A DNA stretch of 64,000 bases from an uncultured Monoglobus sp. (lineage in GTDB: Bacteria > Bacillota > Clostridia > Monoglobales > Monoglobaceae): the NCBI GenBank assembly GCA_947624305.1, contig CANQKC010000011.1:1-64000 (forward strand). The letters run 5' to 3'. The notes beneath the pieces are model-generated. The model did no database searches, was not told the origin of the DNA, and was given only the letters and a program-made list of their open reading frames with translations. A program made the position numbers and the translations under genes. Numbering within the stretch: position 1 is the first letter of the stretch; each line of letters begins with the position of its first letter. Shown in pieces: positions 42,119 through 64,000 of this stretch.

Positions 42119-45100
42119 TTATATCATTTTGGAGATCATCTTGCAGACCTCGGCCCGCGTGGCGGGCGCTTTGGGGTCGAATCTGTTGTTTTCCTTTCCG
42201 TTTATTATTCCCATGCTCCGCATAAGTCCCACGCCAAAGACCGCGTAATCCGAGATCTCCGCGCTGTCGGCGAAATCGGGCGCGGGCGCGTCCTGCGTTT
42301 TAGCGGTTCTCGCCAATATAACGCAGATGTCCTCGCGGGTGATGTTCTCGTCGGGTAAAAAGGTTCCGTCCGGATAACCCGTCACATATCCCGCGCCGCT
42401 CGCCCACGCGATATAGGGCGAATACCACTCGCCCGCCCGAACGTCGGCGAATACCGCCGCTGACGGAGCGTCGGGTTCGGCCGGCCCCATGGCTCGGCAG
42501 ATCACCGCGGTCAGCTCTGCGCGCGTGATATTGCTTTCGGGTCTGAATGTGCCGTCGCCGTAACCGTTTATGATGCCCTTGCCGCTGAGCTCCATTATAT
42601 AATCATACGCCCAGTAATCGGCCTCGACGTCGTTGAACACGGCAGTATCTGCGGAGCTGTCGGGCGCGGGGGAGGCTGTCGGAGCGGCTGTCGGCGACGG
42701 TGAAGCCGCGGAACTTGTGCCAAATCCGCCGCCCGATCCGCCGAAACTTCCCGATGAAACGTGGCTGTCTTTGGTATAGTCGTCGCTGTAATAAAGCAGC
42801 AGTTCGTCTCCGTCTTTAAGCGTGTAGGAGCCTATTCCAACCGAGGGGCTGACGCCGTTCACGGTATAGAGCCAGCCGCTGTTTTTGCCGTTGTCGAACT
42901 CGCTGAGCGTCAGGCCGTCGGGCGTGGTGACCGATTTTATATATCCGCTGTCAATGCCGTCTGCCGAGTATCCTTTGTCGCTCAGAACCGACTTGAGCGC
43001 CGCCGCCGCGCGGGTCCCGTTCGGGAACGTCTTTTTTGCCGCGGATATCCATTCGGGATAAGCGCCGCTGTGCTTTCCCTCGCCGTGCGGCGTGTCGCCC
43101 CTGACCGTGACCGTGACGGATATGCTTCCGCCTGATCCGCCGCCCGAGCCCGAACCGGAGCCGCCCGAAACGCTTCCGCCTTCGCCGGGCTTCTGCGTCT
43201 CACCGATATAAACGTTATAGGCCTTGTTGCCCGCGCTTTCAAAGCCCTTGAGGGCGATAAGCGCGCGGAAGCCCTGCTCGGTCGCGAGAGCGTTAAGCTC
43301 GGAACCGTCGGTATAGCCGAAGCCGCTGTTGTCCGCGAGCGCGAAGCCGATCAGATCGTCCGCCGCGCTTTTGCCGTTTTTGACGAACCGCTCGTCCTTC
43401 GAGGGGTCAATGCCTATCGCCGCGAGGCCGATCACAACCATCGCGTCGGTGTTTGAGCTGAAGAACGTTCCGCCCTCGCCCTGAACCGAGGACAAAATTT
43501 CAACAATGCCGTCAACGGCCTTTTTTATGTCGTTTTGCTGCGCCTCGGTTATTCCCGCGCCGCCGGATGACGCGGCGTTATAATACTTCGCGAGAGCGGC
43601 GAGGACCATCGCGGTCGAGTCATAATCCGGAAAGCTCTGTCCGCCCCATTCATAGCCCCATATTCCGTCCGCGCCGCGGCTTGTCAGTATGTAATCAAGC
43701 AGGGCCTCGCGCGTCAGATTGCCGCCCGAGGTGTAATTCCCCGAGTCATACGTAAGAAGCGCGAACACCGCGTCGGTGACATAGGTTATGTCGGAGGGGT
43801 CAAACGCCGACAGCTTTTGAATTAAATCAAACTCGGAGCCGTCCGAGGTTTTGAGCTTGTCAAGACTGCCGCCCAGGGCGCTGATCGCCAGCGCGTCCTT
43901 TGAAAGCTCGCCTATACCTTCGGCGGAGTATGCCGCGTCAACAAGGCTTTGGAGCGACGCGGTTTTGTCTTTGAGCAGACCGCCGTATCCGCCGCGCGCC
44001 ATGTCAAGCAGCGTCCACGAGTCATTGGTGTCCGCGTATGATCTTGAGATATTATCAAGCAAAATCGCGGCGCGGTCGGAAGTCTGAATATCGGTTGAAG
44101 GCCCGGCGCTCGCCGAAGGCTCGGGAACAGCCGAGGGAGCTCCCGTCGGTGCAGCCGTTGGCACCACGGTCGGAGCCGTTGTGGGGATTTCCGTGGGCGA
44201 GGCAGTAGGCGTCTCTGTCGGAGTTATTGTAGGTGCATCTGTGGGAACGGCTGTCGGAGCTTCCGTTGGCACCTCGGTCGGAGCTGTTGTCGGCGCATCG
44301 GTAGGCGTAATTGTAGGCGCTGCCGTCGGAACCTTCGTCGGAGCCGTTGTGGGGATTTCCGTGGGCGCGGCAGTAGGCGCCGTCGTGGGCATTTCCGTAG
44401 GCGCAATTGCAGGCGTTTCCGTTGGTGCGGCAGTAGATACCTCTGTCGGAGTTATTGTCGGAACTTCCGTGGGAACCGCCGTTGGTGCTTCCGTAGGAGT
44501 CATTGTAGGAGCTTCCGTAGGAGCCATTGTTGGAGTCTCCGTGGGCGCCTCTGTCGGAATTTCTGTGGGAACTGCTGTCGGAACTGTCGTAGGAGCCTCC
44601 GTCGGAGCGGCGGCGGACACTTTTACCTCGCACCAGGGCTGCACAAAATATGTAAAATCGTCCGACGCGCTTTCCGCCGAGATATAATATGTTCCCGGCG
44701 CGTCAAAGCTTATCGTGAACCCGCCGTTGTCGTCGGTGACGATCCCGCTGTCTGTAAGCTCGTTCGGGTCGGTACCTGAAAGAATGACGATATCGGATAT
44801 GGGCTCGGTGTATTCCTCGATCATGTCGGCGGGATAGGAACCCCACATTGTCATATATCCGCTGAGCGTCAGGGCGATCTCCTCGCCGGGAGCGGCGGCG
44901 ACCTGCGAGCGGTCAAAGAAGGCGTAATAATCGCTGTAAAAGTCTCCGTCCTGATAGAAGAAGAGGTTCACTTTTTCTCCGCCGCTTAAGATCGACTTGT
45001 CCGCGCTATAGGCCCCGTATGAGCCGTAAAGCGGGTTCAGCACTCCGTCATTCGGCTGAACGCCGTCAACAAGAAAGCCCGAGGCGCGGCTGTCGCCGAA

Positions 45101-45433
45101 CATCAGGTCAACAAAGCCGCTCTCGGTTATGTTGAGGTACTGCGGGGCGGTTTCGGGCGTGAACATGTCGCCGAGCATCAGCTCGTGCGCCGCGGCTATC
45201 GCGTCGAACACGCTGACGGTGCTCTCGTCGTCGCTGAAGCCGTATTTTTTCGCCGTGTCGGGCGCGACGGTCAGCTCGGTCGGCGGCATTATGATCGTCT
45301 CGTCCGAGATCATCATAGTGATTTGCGCCGGAGCCTGATCGGCGGATACCGCGCCGCAGAAAAGCTGCGGCACGATCATCGCGGCGATAAGCAGGATCGC
45401 GGTAAGTTTTCGGGTCAGTTTTTTTGTTGTCAT
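42119..45433 (-). CDS. S-layer-anchored transcobalamin-like protein (toroid + DUF4430 + SLH)
   Basis: This 1104-residue exported protein starts with a signal peptide (1-31). Next comes a DUF4430-like beta domain (about 36-165: STVSVFDAIAAAHELMLGD, GFLVDGVQPND), then an Ig-like domain. A Pro-Thr linker follows (about 285-450), then an alpha/alpha toroid of the prenyltransferase/terpene-cyclase fold (about 455-743: GIWGYEWGGQSFPDYDSTAM, NALATEQGFRALIALKGF). A Gly/Ser linker leads to a canonical DUF4430 (770-889: GWLYTVNGVSPSVGIGSYTL, KDGDELLLYYSDD), and three SLH repeats close the chain (931-1104). Toroid plus DUF4430 is the architecture of vertebrate intrinsic factor and transcobalamin. A cobalamin riboswitch precedes the gene. 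I infer a surface corrinoid-binding protein. The ATG at 45433 has AAGGAGGAG upstream. Confidence 0.88.
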   Translation of the reverse strand: MTTKKLTRKLTAILLIAAMIVPQLFCGAVSADQAPAQITMMISDETIIMPPTELTVAPDTAKKYGFSDDESTVSVFDAIAAAHELMLGDMFTPETAPQYLNITESGFVDLMFGDSRASGFLVDGVQPNDGVLNPLYGSYGAYSADKSILSGGEKVNLFFYQDGDFYSDYYAFFDRSQVAAAPGEEIALTLSGYMTMWGSYPADMIEEYTEPISDIVILSGTDPNELTDSGIVTDDNGGFTISFDAPGTYYISAESASDDFTYFVQPWCEVKVSAAAPTEAPTTVPTAVPTEIPTEAPTETPTMAPTEAPTMTPTEAPTAVPTEVPTITPTEVSTAAPTETPAIAPTEMPTTAPTAAPTEIPTTAPTKVPTAAPTITPTDAPTTAPTEVPTEAPTAVPTDAPTITPTETPTASPTEIPTTAPTVVPTAAPTGAPSAVPEPSASAGPSTDIQTSDRAAILLDNISRSYADTNDSWTLLDMARGGYGGLLKDKTASLQSLVDAAYSAEGIGELSKDALAISALGGSLDKLKTSDGSEFDLIQKLSAFDPSDITYVTDAVFALLTYDSGNYTSGGNLTREALLDYILTSRGADGIWGYEWGGQSFPDYDSTAMVLAALAKYYNAASSGGAGITEAQQNDIKKAVDGIVEILSSVQGEGGTFFSSNTDAMVVIGLAAIGIDPSKDERFVKNGKSAADDLIGFALADNSGFGYTDGSELNALATEQGFRALIALKGFESAGNKAYNVYIGETQKPGEGGSVSGGSGSGSGGGSGGSISVTVTVRGDTPHGEGKHSGAYPEWISAAKKTFPNGTRAAAALKSVLSDKGYSADGIDSGYIKSVTTPDGLTLSEFDNGKNSGWLYTVNGVSPSVGIGSYTLKDGDELLLYYSDDYTKDSHVSSGSFGGSGGGFGTSSAASPSPTAAPTASPAPDSSADTAVFNDVEADYWAYDYIMELSGKGIINGYGDGTFRPESNITRAELTAVICRAMGPAEPDAPSAAVFADVRAGEWYSPYIAWASGAGYVTGYPDGTFLPDENITREDICVILARTAKTQDAPAPDFADSAEISDYAVFGVGLMRSMGIINGKENNRFDPKAPATRAEVCKMISKMI
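44110..44620 (-). repeat. Pro-Thr-Glu-Ala linker repeat
   Basis: About 28 imperfect units of PTEAPT/PTVPTA/PTITPTE type form a long extended spacer between the N-terminal domains and the toroid. The antisense strand looks like a Val/Gly-rich frame, which is an artefact. Confidence 0.85.
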
Positions 45434-45518: not shown

Positions 45519-45556
45519 CGGTTGCCTAATTCAAGTCCCTGTGAATTGTACTCGGC

Positions 45557-45724
45557 TGATCAAAGGCAGGTCTTCCGGCTCAGGTTCATCGCGCTTCGGC
45601 GCCTTCCCGACAAAAGTCAGTGGCGTGAAGCCGTCGCACTCCCCATTACGGCAGCAAGGACTGCTCGGGATTTTCACCCGCATTCCCTATTATCGGACGC
45701 CGCGGCGCCCGCACCGTTTGATCA
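45557..45724 (-). promoter_or_regulatory. Cobalamin (AdoCbl) riboswitch
   Basis: Read on the minus strand this has the B12-aptamer landmarks in order: GGGAATGCGGGTGAAAATCC (from 45687), GCAGTCC, GCTGCCGTAATGGGGA, GCCACTG, GGGAAGGCG, and AGCCGGAAGACCTGCC ending at 45565. Closing stem P1 is TGATCAAA paired with TTTGATCA (45717-45724 with 45557-45564). It sits about 120 nt before the toroid/DUF4430/SLH gene, with a terminator-like hairpin in between. I see no clear promoter between the preceding DtxR-type gene and the aptamer. Confidence 0.95.
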
Positions 45725-45756
45725 TATTCAATTGTCATGCCCGTTTGGCGGGCGGT

Positions 45757-46128
45757 CTATTCCTCAAATGTCTTAACAAACTCCTTAAGGCGCGAGAAGC
45801 TCTCCTCGCTGATAACGTGCTCGATCCTGCACGCGTCCTCAAGCGCGGTCTCTTCCGACACGCCGATCTTCATAAGGTAACGGCTCAAAAACCGGTGCCG
45901 CTCATAGATCTTTTCGGCGATCTCCCTGCCCGAATCGGTCAGCTCAATGTGGCCGTGCTCGCCCACGGTGATATAGCCGTTCTCTCTGAGGTGCTTCATG
46001 GCGCGGCTGATGCTGGGCTTGGTGAAGCCTGTTTCCGCCACAATATCAATAGAGCGCACAATGTCGCCCTTATTGCTCAGAATAAGTATGGTTTCAAGAT
46101 AGTTTTCAGCCGATTCCATTATTTTCAT
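45757..46128 (-). CDS. DtxR/MntR-type metal-dependent regulator
   Basis: This 123-residue protein has an N-terminal winged helix (ENYLETILILSNKGDIVRSI, AETGFTKPSISRAMKHLREN) and a metal-binding dimerisation domain (HIELTDSGREIAEKIYERHR, EDACRIEHVISEESF). It lacks the SH3-like third domain, like MntR. Against MntR the ligands Asp8 and Glu99 are Asn and Cys here, while the two His and other Glu are kept; the Cys matches DtxR-type iron regulators. GGAG lies eight bases before ATG 46128. It lies directly upstream of the riboswitch on the same strand and may share its transcript. Confidence 0.9.
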   Translation of the reverse strand: MKIMESAENYLETILILSNKGDIVRSIDIVAETGFTKPSISRAMKHLRENGYITVGEHGHIELTDSGREIAEKIYERHRFLSRYLMKIGVSEETALEDACRIEHVISEESFSRLKEFVKTFEE

Positions 46129-46178
46129 TTCATCTACTCCCAAAGTGATCATTGATCGGATATGTTATACCAATACTG

Positions 46179-48800: not shown

Positions 48801-49931
48801 ATGAGGAAAAGAAGAATTTTATCGCTGTTGCTGGCAGTGGCAGTAATGGCAACAATGTTAATCGCGGTACCACTGACCGCAAGCGCGGCGGAGGAAATAA
48901 CATTTGGTGCGTATGCAAAACCGTTCAAATCAACAAATCAAAATTATGTGGATTGGACTTACCATCAAACAACGTCAATTGATCAAAGCGATCCTGACAA
49001 ACCCAAACAAACGAGTGATTCTATGATGAGTTATAAAGATTCCGTTAAAATAAGTTTTGGTGATTTTACGTCAAATGAAATTAAGCAAAATTCAGGTGGT
49101 GATTTTGTAGTCATAAATGATGATTTTGACTTACCGCATAATGAGCATGTTGCCCATCCAGGAACATCGGGTTATGTGGCAAAATCTAATTCGAGCTCAT
49201 ATTTAGAAATAACAAATGCAATTCCGGATGGATGTGATTTTAAAAGTTATGATTTGATTTTAGTATATAATCGTGACAGCAATAGCAGCGGAACAACTAA
49301 ATTTACTATAAGTGATTCGCAAGGCAGTTTTAGCAAACAATTTTCTGATGAATCTAGTAATAATTTTGGAGATGACGGAAATAGTAAAAAGACAGATCCC
49401 GATGAAGTTATTTTTAAAAACATAACTTCTAATAGTGTTAAGCTCTCATGGAATGTTAATGTTGACATCTACAGCGTGTCGCTTGATTATCACGAAAAGG
49501 ATCGGCAGGAAGTTGATCTTATAAGAGGCGAAAAAGACTATGTTTCGGGTATATACTATGAAAATGATGTTGAAACCGAAGGTGAAGCGAGAGGCGTGAT
49601 CAGATTTTTCCAGGATTACAGCGGCGAAGCGGACGGTTACGGATTTGTGTTTATTGACGGAAATGGTGATTTTGTTGAAGGCACAACAACTATAAATGAC
49701 GGCAGAATTGTTAAAAGCAACGATGGCGACGGCACGCTGAGCGGAAAAAGCGGTTTTTACGGTGATGTTTATAATATTTTAGAAACAAATTTTGAGCCGG
49801 GAGTTATCGCCGTGCCTTATGTATCGGTTGACGGATATATTATTTTCGCAAAAGAATCAATAAAAGGAACGGTTGATGAGACAAACAAGGTTATACACGA
49901 GCCGGAATGGGAATGGACGATTACCGAATAA
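48801..49931 (+). CDS. Secreted protein of unknown function, AT-rich
   Basis: This 376-residue protein has a clear signal peptide (RKRRILSLLLAVAVMATMLI, cleavage near AASA/AEE at about residue 30). I recognise no domain. The body is rich in Ser, Asn, Asp and Lys and poor in Arg, with beta-type patterning and no Cys pairs beyond one. DNA from about 48,900 to 49,480 is far more AT-rich than neighbouring genes, with T/A-ending codons, which suggests recent transfer. It is flanked by repeats and followed after 24 bp by a small peptide gene. Confidence 0.82.
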   Translation: MRKRRILSLLLAVAVMATMLIAVPLTASAAEEITFGAYAKPFKSTNQNYVDWTYHQTTSIDQSDPDKPKQTSDSMMSYKDSVKISFGDFTSNEIKQNSGGDFVVINDDFDLPHNEHVAHPGTSGYVAKSNSSSYLEITNAIPDGCDFKSYDLILVYNRDSNSSGTTKFTISDSQGSFSKQFSDESSNNFGDDGNSKKTDPDEVIFKNITSNSVKLSWNVNVDIYSVSLDYHEKDRQEVDLIRGEKDYVSGIYYENDVETEGEARGVIRFFQDYSGEADGYGFVFIDGNGDFVEGTTTINDGRIVKSNDGDGTLSGKSGFYGDVYNILETNFEPGVIAVPYVSVDGYIIFAKESIKGTVDETNKVIHEPEWEWTITE

Positions 49932-61484: not shown

Positions 61485-61513
61485 TTGACACAAGGCTCCA
61501 AAAATGTTAATAT
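61485..61513 (+). promoter_or_regulatory. Promoter of the toroid/DUF4430/ECF operon
   Basis: TTGACA (61485-61490), 17 bp, TAATAT (61508-61513), 31 bp before the toroid gene. The leader is too short to hold a cobalamin riboswitch. Confidence 0.65.
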
Positions 61514-61543: not shown

Positions 61544-62488
61544 ATGAAACTCAAAAACGCTTTAATAATTTTTATCGCGCTGCTGACAGTGCCGTTTGGC
61601 TGCTTCGCGGCGGATACGGACTTCAAAACTACCGAGACCGCGAACTATGTTCGGACGGCAGCCATGTCGCCCGCGCCGGGTTCGATCGGCGGCGAATGGG
61701 CGGTGATCGGCGTAAAGCGCTCGGGCATCACGGCGGACGCGTATTTTGACGGCTATCTGCGCAGGCTCGGCGATTTTATGAAAGAAAACGGCGCGAGCGT
61801 CAATCGCTATACCGACTATTCAAGAATTGCCCTCGCGCTGCGCGAACTGGGCCAGAAGGATACATATGGGCTCAGCGCCTATGTGAACGATTATGACAAA
61901 GTGACAAACCAGGGCATTAACGGCCCTATATTCGCTCTTGAGGCCAAACACGCCCTCGGCGACCAGGACACCGTGACAAGAGACAGATATATCGAATATA
62001 TTTTGAGCCGCCAGAGCGCGGACGGCTCCTTCGCTTTGAGCGAGGATATGCCCGACACCGACATAACGGCTATGGCGGTCGCGGCCCTGTCGCTTTATAA
62101 CACGAATATCGAGATCGACCGCGCAATCAACCGCGGATTTCTGTATCTTTCATCCGTGCAGGCGGGCGACGGCAGTTTCGCGCCGACAAGCGGCGAGGAG
62201 GCGAGCTGCGAAAGCACCGCGCAGGTGATCATCGCCATGAAGCGGCACGGTCTAAGACCCGACAACAGATTTTTTGTGAAAAACGGCAATACCCCGTCCG
62301 ACGGCTTAGACCTCTTCCGCAAGAGCGGCGGGGGCTATGCGCACCTCGCCTCGGACTCCGCGCCCGATCAAATGGCGTCGGAGCAAGCCCTGCTCGCCTT
62401 GACCGCGCCCGAGGGAACGCCGAAGACGCTGGTTTACGACTCGATATGGTTCGATGCGTCGCAGGCGTATCTTGAGAGCCAAAGATAA
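61544..62488 (+). CDS. Exported alpha/alpha-toroid protein (transcobalamin alpha-domain-like)
   Basis: This 314-residue exported protein has a signal sequence (residues 1-23) and then an alpha-helical toroid of the prenyltransferase/terpene-cyclase type: ALALRELGQKDTYGLSAYVN, ILSRQSADGSFALSEDMPDT, DITAMAVAALSLY and YLSSVQAGDGSFAPTSGEEA. The end, DNRFFVKNGNTPSDGLDLFR with ASEQALLAL, closely follows the toroid of the SLH protein (DERFVKNGKSAADDLIGF, ATEQGFRALIAL). It lacks a DUF4430 domain; that domain is in the next gene. I infer a corrinoid-binding partner. Confidence 0.83.
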   Translation: MKLKNALIIFIALLTVPFGCFAADTDFKTTETANYVRTAAMSPAPGSIGGEWAVIGVKRSGITADAYFDGYLRRLGDFMKENGASVNRYTDYSRIALALRELGQKDTYGLSAYVNDYDKVTNQGINGPIFALEAKHALGDQDTVTRDRYIEYILSRQSADGSFALSEDMPDTDITAMAVAALSLYNTNIEIDRAINRGFLYLSSVQAGDGSFAPTSGEEASCESTAQVIIAMKRHGLRPDNRFFVKNGNTPSDGLDLFRKSGGGYAHLASDSAPDQMASEQALLALTAPEGTPKTLVYDSIWFDASQAYLESQR

Positions 62489-62518
62489 AAATATAACAGA
62501 CAGAAAGCGTAACACGGA

Positions 62519-63322
62519 ATGAAAAAACGATTAATTATCCCGCTTGCCGCCATGCTTTGCCTGTCTCTCGCCGGGTGCGGCGGAGACAGCCCCGCCCCCG
62601 AGCCTTCGGCCACGAATGAGACATACGCGGGAATAAGAACCGAAAGCAGGTTCTCGCCGGACGGCGAAAGCTCGGAAGCGCCGCAGCCCGCGGCAAGCGC
62701 CGAACCGAACGCGGCACCTGCGCCCTCCGCCGCTGCGAAAAACGCGGGCGGCAGTTCAAGCGTCGCGGCGCGAACCGAAAATGACGTAACAGTTGCGGCG
62801 CAAAACGCCGTAACAAGCGAAAACGCGGCTCCGGACATAAGCTCCGCGTCAAGCTCCGAAAATTCCGCGGAAAACGCGGCCCCGAACGGCGAAAGCGCGC
62901 CTCTGCCCGAGCAGCAGCCCGCCGCTCCCGAAAACAGCAAAAGCACCTGCGCGTTTTTGATCGACTGCTCAAAGGCGCTTGAATACCCGGGCCTGAGCGG
63001 CAGCCTCCGCTCCGCCCTGCCGCAGAACGGCGTGCTCTACGGCGGCAGCCCCGAGGTCAAAGACGGCGACAGCGTTTTTGACCTGCTGCAGCGTATCACG
63101 CGGGAAAACGGAATACCTATGGAGTTTTCGTCCTCTCCGGGCTTCGGCTCAAAGTATATCGAGGGCATAAACTCGCTGTATGAGTTTGACTGCGGCCCAA
63201 ACTCGGGCTGGGTGTATTTTGTGAACGGCGAGAAGCCTGGAGTGGGCTGCGATAAATATGAAATAAAGCCCGGCGACGATGTGCGCTGGTACTACACACT
63301 GGACTTAGGCAACGATATATAG
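62519..63322 (+). CDS. DUF4430 lipoprotein (transcobalamin beta-domain-like)
   Basis: This 267-residue lipoprotein has a lipobox LSLAGC (Cys at residue 20), a long low-complexity Ala/Glu/Ser/Pro linker (20-140) and a C-terminal DUF4430 domain (about 145-267): DSVFDLLQRITRENGIP, YIEGINSLYEFDCGPNSGWV, YFVNGEKPGVGCDKYEIKPG, DDVRWYYTLD. DUF4430 is also called transcobalamin-like C-terminal. It sits 30 bp after the toroid gene and 9 bp before the ECF T-component gene. The SD is weak, so coupling from upstream is likely. I infer that it completes the toroid as the second half of a binding site. Confidence 0.87.
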   Translation: MKKRLIIPLAAMLCLSLAGCGGDSPAPEPSATNETYAGIRTESRFSPDGESSEAPQPAASAEPNAAPAPSAAAKNAGGSSSVAARTENDVTVAAQNAVTSENAAPDISSASSSENSAENAAPNGESAPLPEQQPAAPENSKSTCAFLIDCSKALEYPGLSGSLRSALPQNGVLYGGSPEVKDGDSVFDLLQRITRENGIPMEFSSSPGFGSKYIEGINSLYEFDCGPNSGWVYFVNGEKPGVGCDKYEIKPGDDVRWYYTLDLGNDI

Positions 63323-63331
63323 GAGAAAATT

Positions 63332-64000
63332 ATGCGTGATGAATTTTCACGGTTCCATCCGACGGTAAACTTTTTATACTTCGCCGCTGTGATCGTATTC
63401 GCGGCGATATATATGAGCCCGCCCCTGGTCGCGATCTCGCTGGCCGCGGCGCTCATATACTCGATTTACATGGGCGGCGCGCGGTCGCTCAAATTCAGCA
63501 TGCTCATAATACTTCCGATAGGGCTGTTCGCCGCGCTTATAAACATAGCGTTCAACCACAACGGCATGACGGTCCTGACCTATCTGCCAACCGGCAACCC
63601 GATAACTCTTGAGTCGATAGTCTACGGCCTGTGCGCCGCGGCGCTTCTGGCCGATGTGATACTCTGGTTTTTCTGCTTCAACAAGGTCATCACGTCCGAC
63701 AAGTTCATATATCTGTTCGGTCGGATAATCCCGTCGCTGTCGCTTGTGCTTTCAATGGTCCTGCGCTTTATCCCGCGTTTCCGCCATCAGCACCATTCGG
63801 TCGTGACCGCGCAGAAGAGCCTTGTCAAGGCGGGCGGCAAAAACGGCTTTATATCAAAGATTAAGCACGGCGCCAATGTGTTCTCGATCATGCTCACATG
63901 GTCGCTTGAGAACTCGATAATCACGGCGGACTCAATGAATTCGCGCGGCTACGGCTTAAAGGGCAGAACAGCCTTTTCGCGCTATCGCTTCTATTCGAGG
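63332..64000 (+). CDS. ecfT: ECF transporter T component (partial, cut by window end)
   Basis: The first 223 codons of a polytopic membrane protein (at least five hydrophobic segments) with EcfT features: SLSLVLSMVLRFIPRFRHQH and the coupling-helix signature DSMNSRGYGLKGRTAF, which matches the Ala-Arg-Gly box of EcfT/CbiQ. EcfT links a substrate-binding S component to the EcfA ATPases. AGGAGA lies seven bases before the ATG. The gene runs off the window without a stop, so S and A components are expected beyond the edge. It is operonic with the toroid and DUF4430 genes. Confidence 0.9.
   Translation, partial: MRDEFSRFHPTVNFLYFAAVIVFAAIYMSPPLVAISLAAALIYSIYMGGARSLKFSMLIILPIGLFAALINIAFNHNGMTVLTYLPTGNPITLESIVYGLCAAALLADVILWFFCFNKVITSDKFIYLFGRIIPSLSLVLSMVLRFIPRFRHQHHSVVTAQKSLVKAGGKNGFISKIKHGANVFSIMLTWSLENSIITADSMNSRGYGLKGRTAFSRYRFYSR

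Follow-up and report, generated by a model that had tools for sequence, protein, structure and literature searches.

A toroid–DUF4430 protein pair encoded with a CbrT-like ECF transporter in Monoglobus points to a corrinoid importer with its own extracellular parts

Close to the end of the 64,000-nucleotide stretch analysed here (the window; positions 1 to 64,000 of contig CANQKC010000011.1 from an uncultured Monoglobus sp.), two genes for exported proteins stand directly ahead of a gene for an energy-coupling factor (ECF) transporter, and the question is what such an importer would do with proteins outside the membrane. The first gene encodes TOR, an alpha/alpha toroid protein, the second LIPO, a lipoprotein with a DUF4430 domain, and the third EcfT, the transmembrane coupling protein. 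A first-pass annotation had described these as three consecutive plus-strand genes and had read the exported pair as a split transcobalamin-like binder feeding the importer; open reading frame (ORF) calls agree with the layout, including gaps of 30 bp between TOR and LIPO and 9 bp between LIPO and EcfT, and Pfam agrees with the three protein types. From its sequence, the operon very probably imports corrinoids (vitamin B12 and relatives), and the best explanation of the locus as a whole is probably a dedicated ECF corrinoid importer with extracellular capture parts of its own.

What the pump carries is suggested by its S component. Domains were assigned by Pfam and NCBIfam searches of translated ORFs, with scores set against each family's cut-off. 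The contig extends 7.7 kb past the window end, and there the operon closes with a single 826-aa ORF, which overlaps EcfT by 85 bp, has a start that may be set too early, and joins two ABC_tran stretches to an S domain. EcfT itself matches the CbiQ/EcfT family PF02361 with 27.7 bits on its window part and 25.7 bits on the full protein (cut-off 25), and the best NCBIfam matches of the ATPases are ECF_ATPase models, below their equivalog cut-offs (295.6 versus 330). Pfam places the S domain in generic ECF families, PF07155 first (37.5 bits), then PF12822 and PF20221. Its single match at E ≤ 10 in a sequence search of the PDB is 6fnp_A (E 1.1e-12, 51.4 bits, residues 57–226 against 10–177), an entry which we take to be the structure of ECF-CbrT from Lactobacillus delbrueckii with CbrT as chain A; consistent with this, the entry also contains EcfA1 by PDB sequence match. 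By sequence, the S component is homologous to CbrT of the vitamin B12 importer; the first-pass annotation had allowed for one specific for another ligand, and the domain found is CbrT-like instead. Uptake of both cobalamin and cobinamide by ECF-CbrT has been proven (PMC5997447), and CbrUVT is counted among the known B12 uptake systems in the accessible text of PMC6593275.

The gene set recurs widely. LIPO is present in 30 of the 38 genomes of the family, in 40 of the 51 genomes of the order and in about a quarter (79 of 293) of a class sample (genomes at least 90% complete, E ≤ 1e-25). In a survey of named genomes its profile matched at least 598 stretches, the best 80 loci of which were used; these come from Monoglobus, Ruminococcus bromii, Clostridium tagluense, Enterococcus pingfangensis, Paenibacillus lignilyticus, Lutispora, Formimonas and many metagenome-assembled genomes, seven of them (L057–L063) being relatives within the window genus. 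Next to LIPO lie EcfT in 73 of the 80, the ATPases in 72, an S component in 65 and, just upstream, a toroid in 62, with the ATPases and S component fused in 50. Where the flanks are complete (44 loci with >4 kb upstream and 4.5 kb downstream), EcfT, ATPases and S component accompany LIPO in 41 loci, and TOR as well in 36. With LIPO recurring at these rates and EcfT so regularly adjoining it, the arrangement is therefore not a chance one. Eight of the 44 depart from the full pattern: L067, L071, L086, L090 and L118 have no toroid adjoining LIPO on its upstream side, L126 has ATPases and S component with neither EcfT nor toroid within the limits used, and L097 and L124 have toroid and LIPO with no ECF genes within those limits, an S/ATPase ORF lying ~9 kb off on the opposite strand in L097. 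In L090 (6618–9600), a cobalamin riboswitch is followed by an exported PQQ_2/beta-propeller-like protein in the toroid's place and then by LIPO and ECF genes; this protein is reminiscent of the BtuG propeller.

Cobalamin riboswitches (RF00174) accompany the system. The 38 family genomes hold 39 of them over the cut-off, and 41 matches in ~73 Mb, or ~0.6 per Mb. The gene downstream was read for 38 (G035:C106 left out), two of which (L142, L143) end at a contig edge; 32 of the 36 readable riboswitches lie ahead of EcfT or of a gene of the system that encodes a toroid, DUF4430 or SLH protein. Included in the 32 are L038, L049 and L050, where Pfam recognises only SLH in the first gene and LIPO is directly next; of the rest, two can be assigned only with doubt (L141, truncated, and L144, weak), and L139 and L147 precede other genes. 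The riboswitch heads a LIPO-containing run in 12 loci from 11 genomes (L038–L041, L044, L045, L047, L049, L050, L052, L053 and L156), and EcfT follows it directly, with no LIPO between, in L145 (33 nt) and L146 (118 nt). A covariance model built from 17 family riboswitches and run over 73 named loci (1.05 Mb) gave 54 matches at E ≤ 1, with a same-strand match upstream in 44 of the 73. Rfam's own model confirmed seven of eight loci tested, the R. bromii locus (L114) reaching 27.0 bits, below the cut-off of 31.5. Of the 29 loci lacking a match, the 19 that were scanned with Rfam held no riboswitch of any kind, and several of the others end at contig edges. No other metabolite riboswitch was found at gathering score in 27 named loci, the one T-box lying ~6 kb beyond the L081 operon; riboswitches of other types at homologous loci, which the first-pass annotation had considered as a counter-sign, thus did not appear in the loci scanned.

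The gene content of the host would look like that of a B12-dependent auxotroph without BtuCD. CbiD, the one marker gene used for de novo B12 synthesis, occurs in none of the 38 family genomes, that of the window included, and in 6 of 14 control genomes. The B12-binding domain PF02310 occurs in 35 of the 38, and in the window genome is found among others in a 799-aa ORF that, from its size, may be methionine synthase. FecCD, the BtuC family, exceeds the cut-off in five of the 38 and not in the window genome. The operon is also present in R. bromii (L114), a species reported to be unable to make B12 (PMC6231298).

Turning to the exported proteins, TOR passes the cut-off of the Prenyltrans toroid family PF00432 (E 5.4e-7, 29.8 bits versus 26.5), reaches 41.2 bits against NCBIfam SCO2321_fam, far under that model's cut-off of 300, and contains no DUF4430 by Pfam search; its N-terminus, judged by eye, is a signal-peptide-like stretch. 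LIPO begins with a lipobox-like LSLAGC, also judged by eye, separated by a low-complexity linker of ~120 residues from DUF4430 (PF14478, E 3.5e-20, residues 183–260, nucleotides 63065–63298). Across 24 homologues, 20 of the 146 columns of the LIPO domain are invariant, including C11, D85, G87, SGW 90–92 and VN 96–97. The two ORFs are separated by two in-frame stops; together they hold both the alpha/alpha toroid and the SLBB/DUF4430 domain, but in two chains. In transcobalamin, a single B12 is held between the toroid and the beta domain (PMC1796856).

Table 1. Positions of the operon, of the one-chain protein BIG and of associated signals
Feature	Coordinates	Strand	Basis
TOR, exported alpha/alpha toroid protein, 314 aa, without anchor domain	61544-62488	+	ORF, Pfam
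LIPO, DUF4430 lipoprotein, 267 aa	62519-63322	+	ORF, Pfam, lipobox by eye
EcfT (CbiQ-like) transmembrane coupling protein, 295 aa	63332-64219 (window part 63332-64000)	+	ORF, Pfam
EcfA-EcfA'-S fusion, 826 aa, beyond the window	contig 64135-66615		ORF, Pfam, S domain CbrT-like
BIG, exported toroid + DUF4430 + three SLH domains	42119-45433	-	Pfam; toroid by predicted fold
Cobalamin riboswitch RF00174, 108.1 bits, directly 5' of BIG	45548-45734	-	Rfam
Sigma-70-like promoter match TTGACA-17-TAATAT, TG before second hexamer, just 5' of TOR	61485-61513	+	consensus match only

Both halves in a single chain are found in a further protein of the window, BIG, whose ORF is open back to 45496 and whose start was set at MTTKKL as in L150. 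Its toroid and DUF4430 part was modelled by AlphaFold2 from a 23-row alignment (pLDDT 89.2, pTM 0.68), and all 15 Foldseek matches in the PDB at E ≤ 0.001 are to transcobalamin, haptocorrin or intrinsic factor. By VIA, intrinsic factor comes top (2pmv and 3kq4, Z 21.9, 348–353 residues, root-mean-square deviation (r.m.s.d.) 6.5 Å) over both domains, followed by drimenyl diphosphate synthases (Z ~19.9) over the toroid only; with an r.m.s.d. near 6 Å, the orientation of the domains is therefore similar to that in intrinsic factor and not identical. BIG, with its three SLH domains, is a predicted wall-anchored, one-chain protein, transcobalamin-like by this model and encoded under a riboswitch. 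In the window genus the riboswitch precedes BIG instead of the TOR–LIPO operon. The only other cobalamin riboswitch of the genome (contig C7 of G000, 83480–83702; L046 11481–11703, minus strand) precedes the gene for an exported DUF4430 protein of 1518 aa with GLUG repeats, and the next gene encodes a GLUG/PT-repeat protein of 1328 aa; surface DUF4430 proteins are thus encoded behind both cobalamin riboswitches of the genome.

TOR and LIPO were modelled by AlphaFold2 as a read-through pseudo-fusion from 74 alignment rows (17 paired, 57 unpaired). Both domains have pLDDT near 95, with a pTM of 0.60, and the best Foldseek match is rat transcobalamin (8ixt, E 8.1e-7, 590 columns), extending through both domains. 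Transcobalamin is absent among the best 50 VIA matches listed for this model. TOR does not match PF01122 (Cobalamin_bind) at E ≤ 10 in Pfam; in relatives from other genera this family scores 21.4 (L052) and 22.5 bits (L053), below its cut-off of 25, and 25.5 bits with the L053 cut-out. PDB matches of the full LIPO profile are low-complexity noise.

How the toroid is held at the surface differs among loci. In the window genus TOR has no anchoring domain; SLH domains are attached to it in L041, L042, L044, L045, L055 and L129. Six loci (L047, L073, L079, L089, L095 and L104) have a gene of ~210 aa between TOR and LIPO; in all six, TOR ends in Dockerin_1 over the cut-off, and the intervening protein, with a hydrophobic N-terminal stretch, matches Cohesin over the cut-off in four and just below it in L073 and L104. 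DUF4430 combined with dockerin and weak toroid matches occurs in L114, L082 and L115. Literature searches on DUF4430/toroid proteins found no paper on versions anchored by dockerin and cohesin.

Several observations weigh against TOR and LIPO forming a B12 binder that serves this pump. No riboswitch precedes the TOR–LIPO–ECF genes of the window, at gathering score or at E ≤ 1 on L004 1200–1700, and RF00174 stands directly ahead of none of 12 TOR–LIPO operons of the window genus (the upstream side of L029 being cut off); a link of the system to RF00174 is thus upheld by the named loci and the family riboswitches, but not by the window's own operon. Against transcobalamin-family rows, the model of the pair has an r.m.s.d. 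of 26–29 Å, and therefore the domain folds match in order while their mutual placement is unlike that in transcobalamin; a read-through helix (275–319) links TOR to the LIPO signal peptide. Neither phmmer nor profile searches of the PDB gave a sequence-level transcobalamin match for TOR, LIPO or BIG, and an adjacent toroid is missing upstream in 6 of the 44 loci with full flanks. As to the split binder feeding an ECF importer proposed at first pass, the CbrT-like S component and the riboswitches speak for it, and the predicted placement and the toroid-less loci against it. TOR alone, moreover, is closest to terpene cyclases (VIA Z ~24), its nearest solved folds being drimenyl diphosphate synthase and squalene–hopene cyclase, which would fit an exported enzyme of terpene-cyclase or prenyltransferase type; this we regard as most unlikely, TOR being exported, encoded inside a corrinoid operon and replaced elsewhere by SLH or dockerin toroids. 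The top Pfam family of the S domain, PF07155, carries a riboflavin name, which would suit a pump for a different vitamin, riboflavin for example, with the link to riboswitches a regulatory coincidence. Because CbrT is the only PDB sequence match of the S domain, riboflavin was rejected, and with cobalamin riboswitches recurring and no other metabolite type in the 27 loci, any such vitamin is very improbable. No more credible is a CbiMNQO-type importer of cobalt ions beside unrelated surface proteins: the weak Pfam match of EcfT to the CbiQ model favours it, and it was rejected on a score of 27.2 bits against the NCBIfam cobalt-specific CbiQ model (cut-off 111.8), the CbrT-like S domain, the lack of a CbiM family among the 25 of 26 Pfam families listed, and the lack of CbiD, given which cobalt for corrin synthesis is not expected.

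The weightier alternative accepts corrinoid import and changes the part played by the exported proteins: LIPO would bind corrinoid alone, as an isolated beta domain, and TOR, BIG and other surface proteins would be interchangeable feeders. Five loci with LIPO and ECF genes and no adjacent upstream toroid (L067, L071, L086, L090, L118) are in keeping with such a relay, as are the PQQ_2 protein under a riboswitch in L090, the dockerin protein without a recognised toroid in L118 and the ECF genes that follow a riboswitch straight away in L145 and L146. The isolated beta domain of human transcobalamin is, by its entry title, bound to cyanocobalamin in PDB entry 5np4, and AlphaFold2 left the TOR–LIPO pair unclosed. 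Against a relay stand the toroid adjoining LIPO in most named loci (62 of 80) and the absence of a DUF4430 from TOR, which alone would therefore be half of a known fold; on balance the relay is a possible reading to which we give rather less than even weight. That TOR and LIPO are two halves of one binding site has about an even chance. In its fullest form, a true multi-chain ECF receptor in which membrane-tethered LIPO clasps the corrinoid only once a separate toroid half arrives, the idea falls a little short of that, as does its corollary that this half is free here, wall-anchored by SLH elsewhere and plugged in by dockerin and cohesin in Ruminococcus-like relatives.

Gene content, its conservation, the linkage to riboswitches, homology to CbrT and the predicted folds of the parts are established directly; we infer from them corrinoid binding, the meeting of TOR and LIPO and the order of transfer in the following scheme. 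The pump would consist of EcfT and the EcfA-EcfA'-CbrT-like fusion, LIPO, tethered to the membrane, would display on its outer side, by way of a flexible linker, a beta-type domain (SLBB/DUF4430) like that of transcobalamin, TOR would supply the alpha-type toroid, and wall-anchored BIG would combine both halves in one chain. Corrinoid may be captured by BIG, LIPO or both; TOR would next close over the LIPO-bound ligand, like the alpha domain in transcobalamin, and the CbrT-like S component would finally receive the ligand for import driven by ATP. The sandwich described for transcobalamin, together with the cyanocobalamin-bound structure of its isolated beta domain, would allow for LIPO binding first and TOR closing over it afterwards. 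When B12 is low, the cobalamin riboswitch would allow more expression, which in this species would concern BIG only.

Around these genes, hydE (NCBIfam 576 bits) lies 65 bp 5' of TOR and looks unrelated to the operon. Between the two is the promoter match (Table 1), which agrees at 10 of 12 positions (L004 1486–1514); 24 such sites occur in L004 against 10.3 expected in shuffles. Just upstream of the BIG riboswitch (window 45757–46152, minus strand) a 131-aa winged-helix-like protein is encoded, presumably DtxR/MntR-like, and a similar start, MKIMESAENYLETIL, is found beside BIG in L031, L032, L033 and L034. Two exported proteins of different sequence (window 48801–49931 and contig 67521–69503) share the near-identical leader MRKRRILSLLLAVAV.ATMLIAVPLTASA, which one protein each in L026 and L027 has as well. 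Just past the last gene of the operon in L078 (9669–9764), on the opposite strand, is a Gut-1 RNA (RF01706, 67.8 bits).

Animal transcobalamin, intrinsic factor and haptocorrin are soluble single chains. The system described here resembles them in its toroid and SLBB beta domain, with BIG matching over both domains, and differs in that TOR and LIPO are two chains, LIPO being predicted to be membrane-tethered. A literature search, which did not extend to bioRxiv, found no paper combining a transcobalamin-like protein, ECF and corrinoid, and none by title tying DUF4430 to ECF uptake; Rodionov 2009, which reportedly predicted CbrT, may discuss extracellular parts. Closest among published proposals is that of Burroughs et al. 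2007 (PMC1796856), the accessible portion of which describes secreted, transcobalamin-like bacterial SLBB proteins fused to toroids, frequently accompanied by another extracellular SLBB paralogue, and CbiO/CbiQ operons, in hosts usually without B12 synthesis, considers surface complexes likely and predicts B12 scavenging. Shared with those operons are the exported SLBB proteins encoded with CbiO- and CbiQ-like genes and a host without CbiD; toroid and SLBB form one chain there and separate chains here, and the CbrT S component, cobalamin riboswitches, SLH and dockerin/cohesin anchoring are unmentioned in that portion. The first-pass annotation thus overstated how unusual the arrangement is. 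Like ECF-CbrT (CbrTUV) of L. delbrueckii (PMC5997447, 6FNP), the pump combines EcfT with a pair of EcfA-type ATPases and an S component homologous to CbrT. It differs in that one chain holds the S component together with both ATPases, and in that genes for extracellular binders accompany it; L. delbrueckii CbrT works with a shared ECF module. BtuG of Bacteroides is likewise a surface protein that catches B12 for a transporter; as described in the accessible part of PMC6143338, it is a seven-bladed beta-propeller working with BtuB, with no toroid, DUF4430 or ECF.

What is new here is the two-chain form, the identification of CbrT, the riboswitch regulon and the dockerin/cohesin versions, B12 scavenging by such operons having been predicted already. 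The general view that ECF importers depend on nothing but their S component would have to be qualified if such pumps can come with dedicated receptors outside the cell. The split and fused forms also offer testable bacterial counterparts for the origin of the animal B12 carriers; a transfer of transcobalamin to animals from Gram-positive bacteria was proposed in PMC1796856. Were the multi-chain receptor to prove true, it would be a vitamin receptor built like part of a cellulosome and would resemble an ancestor of animal transcobalamin in which the two halves are still unfused.

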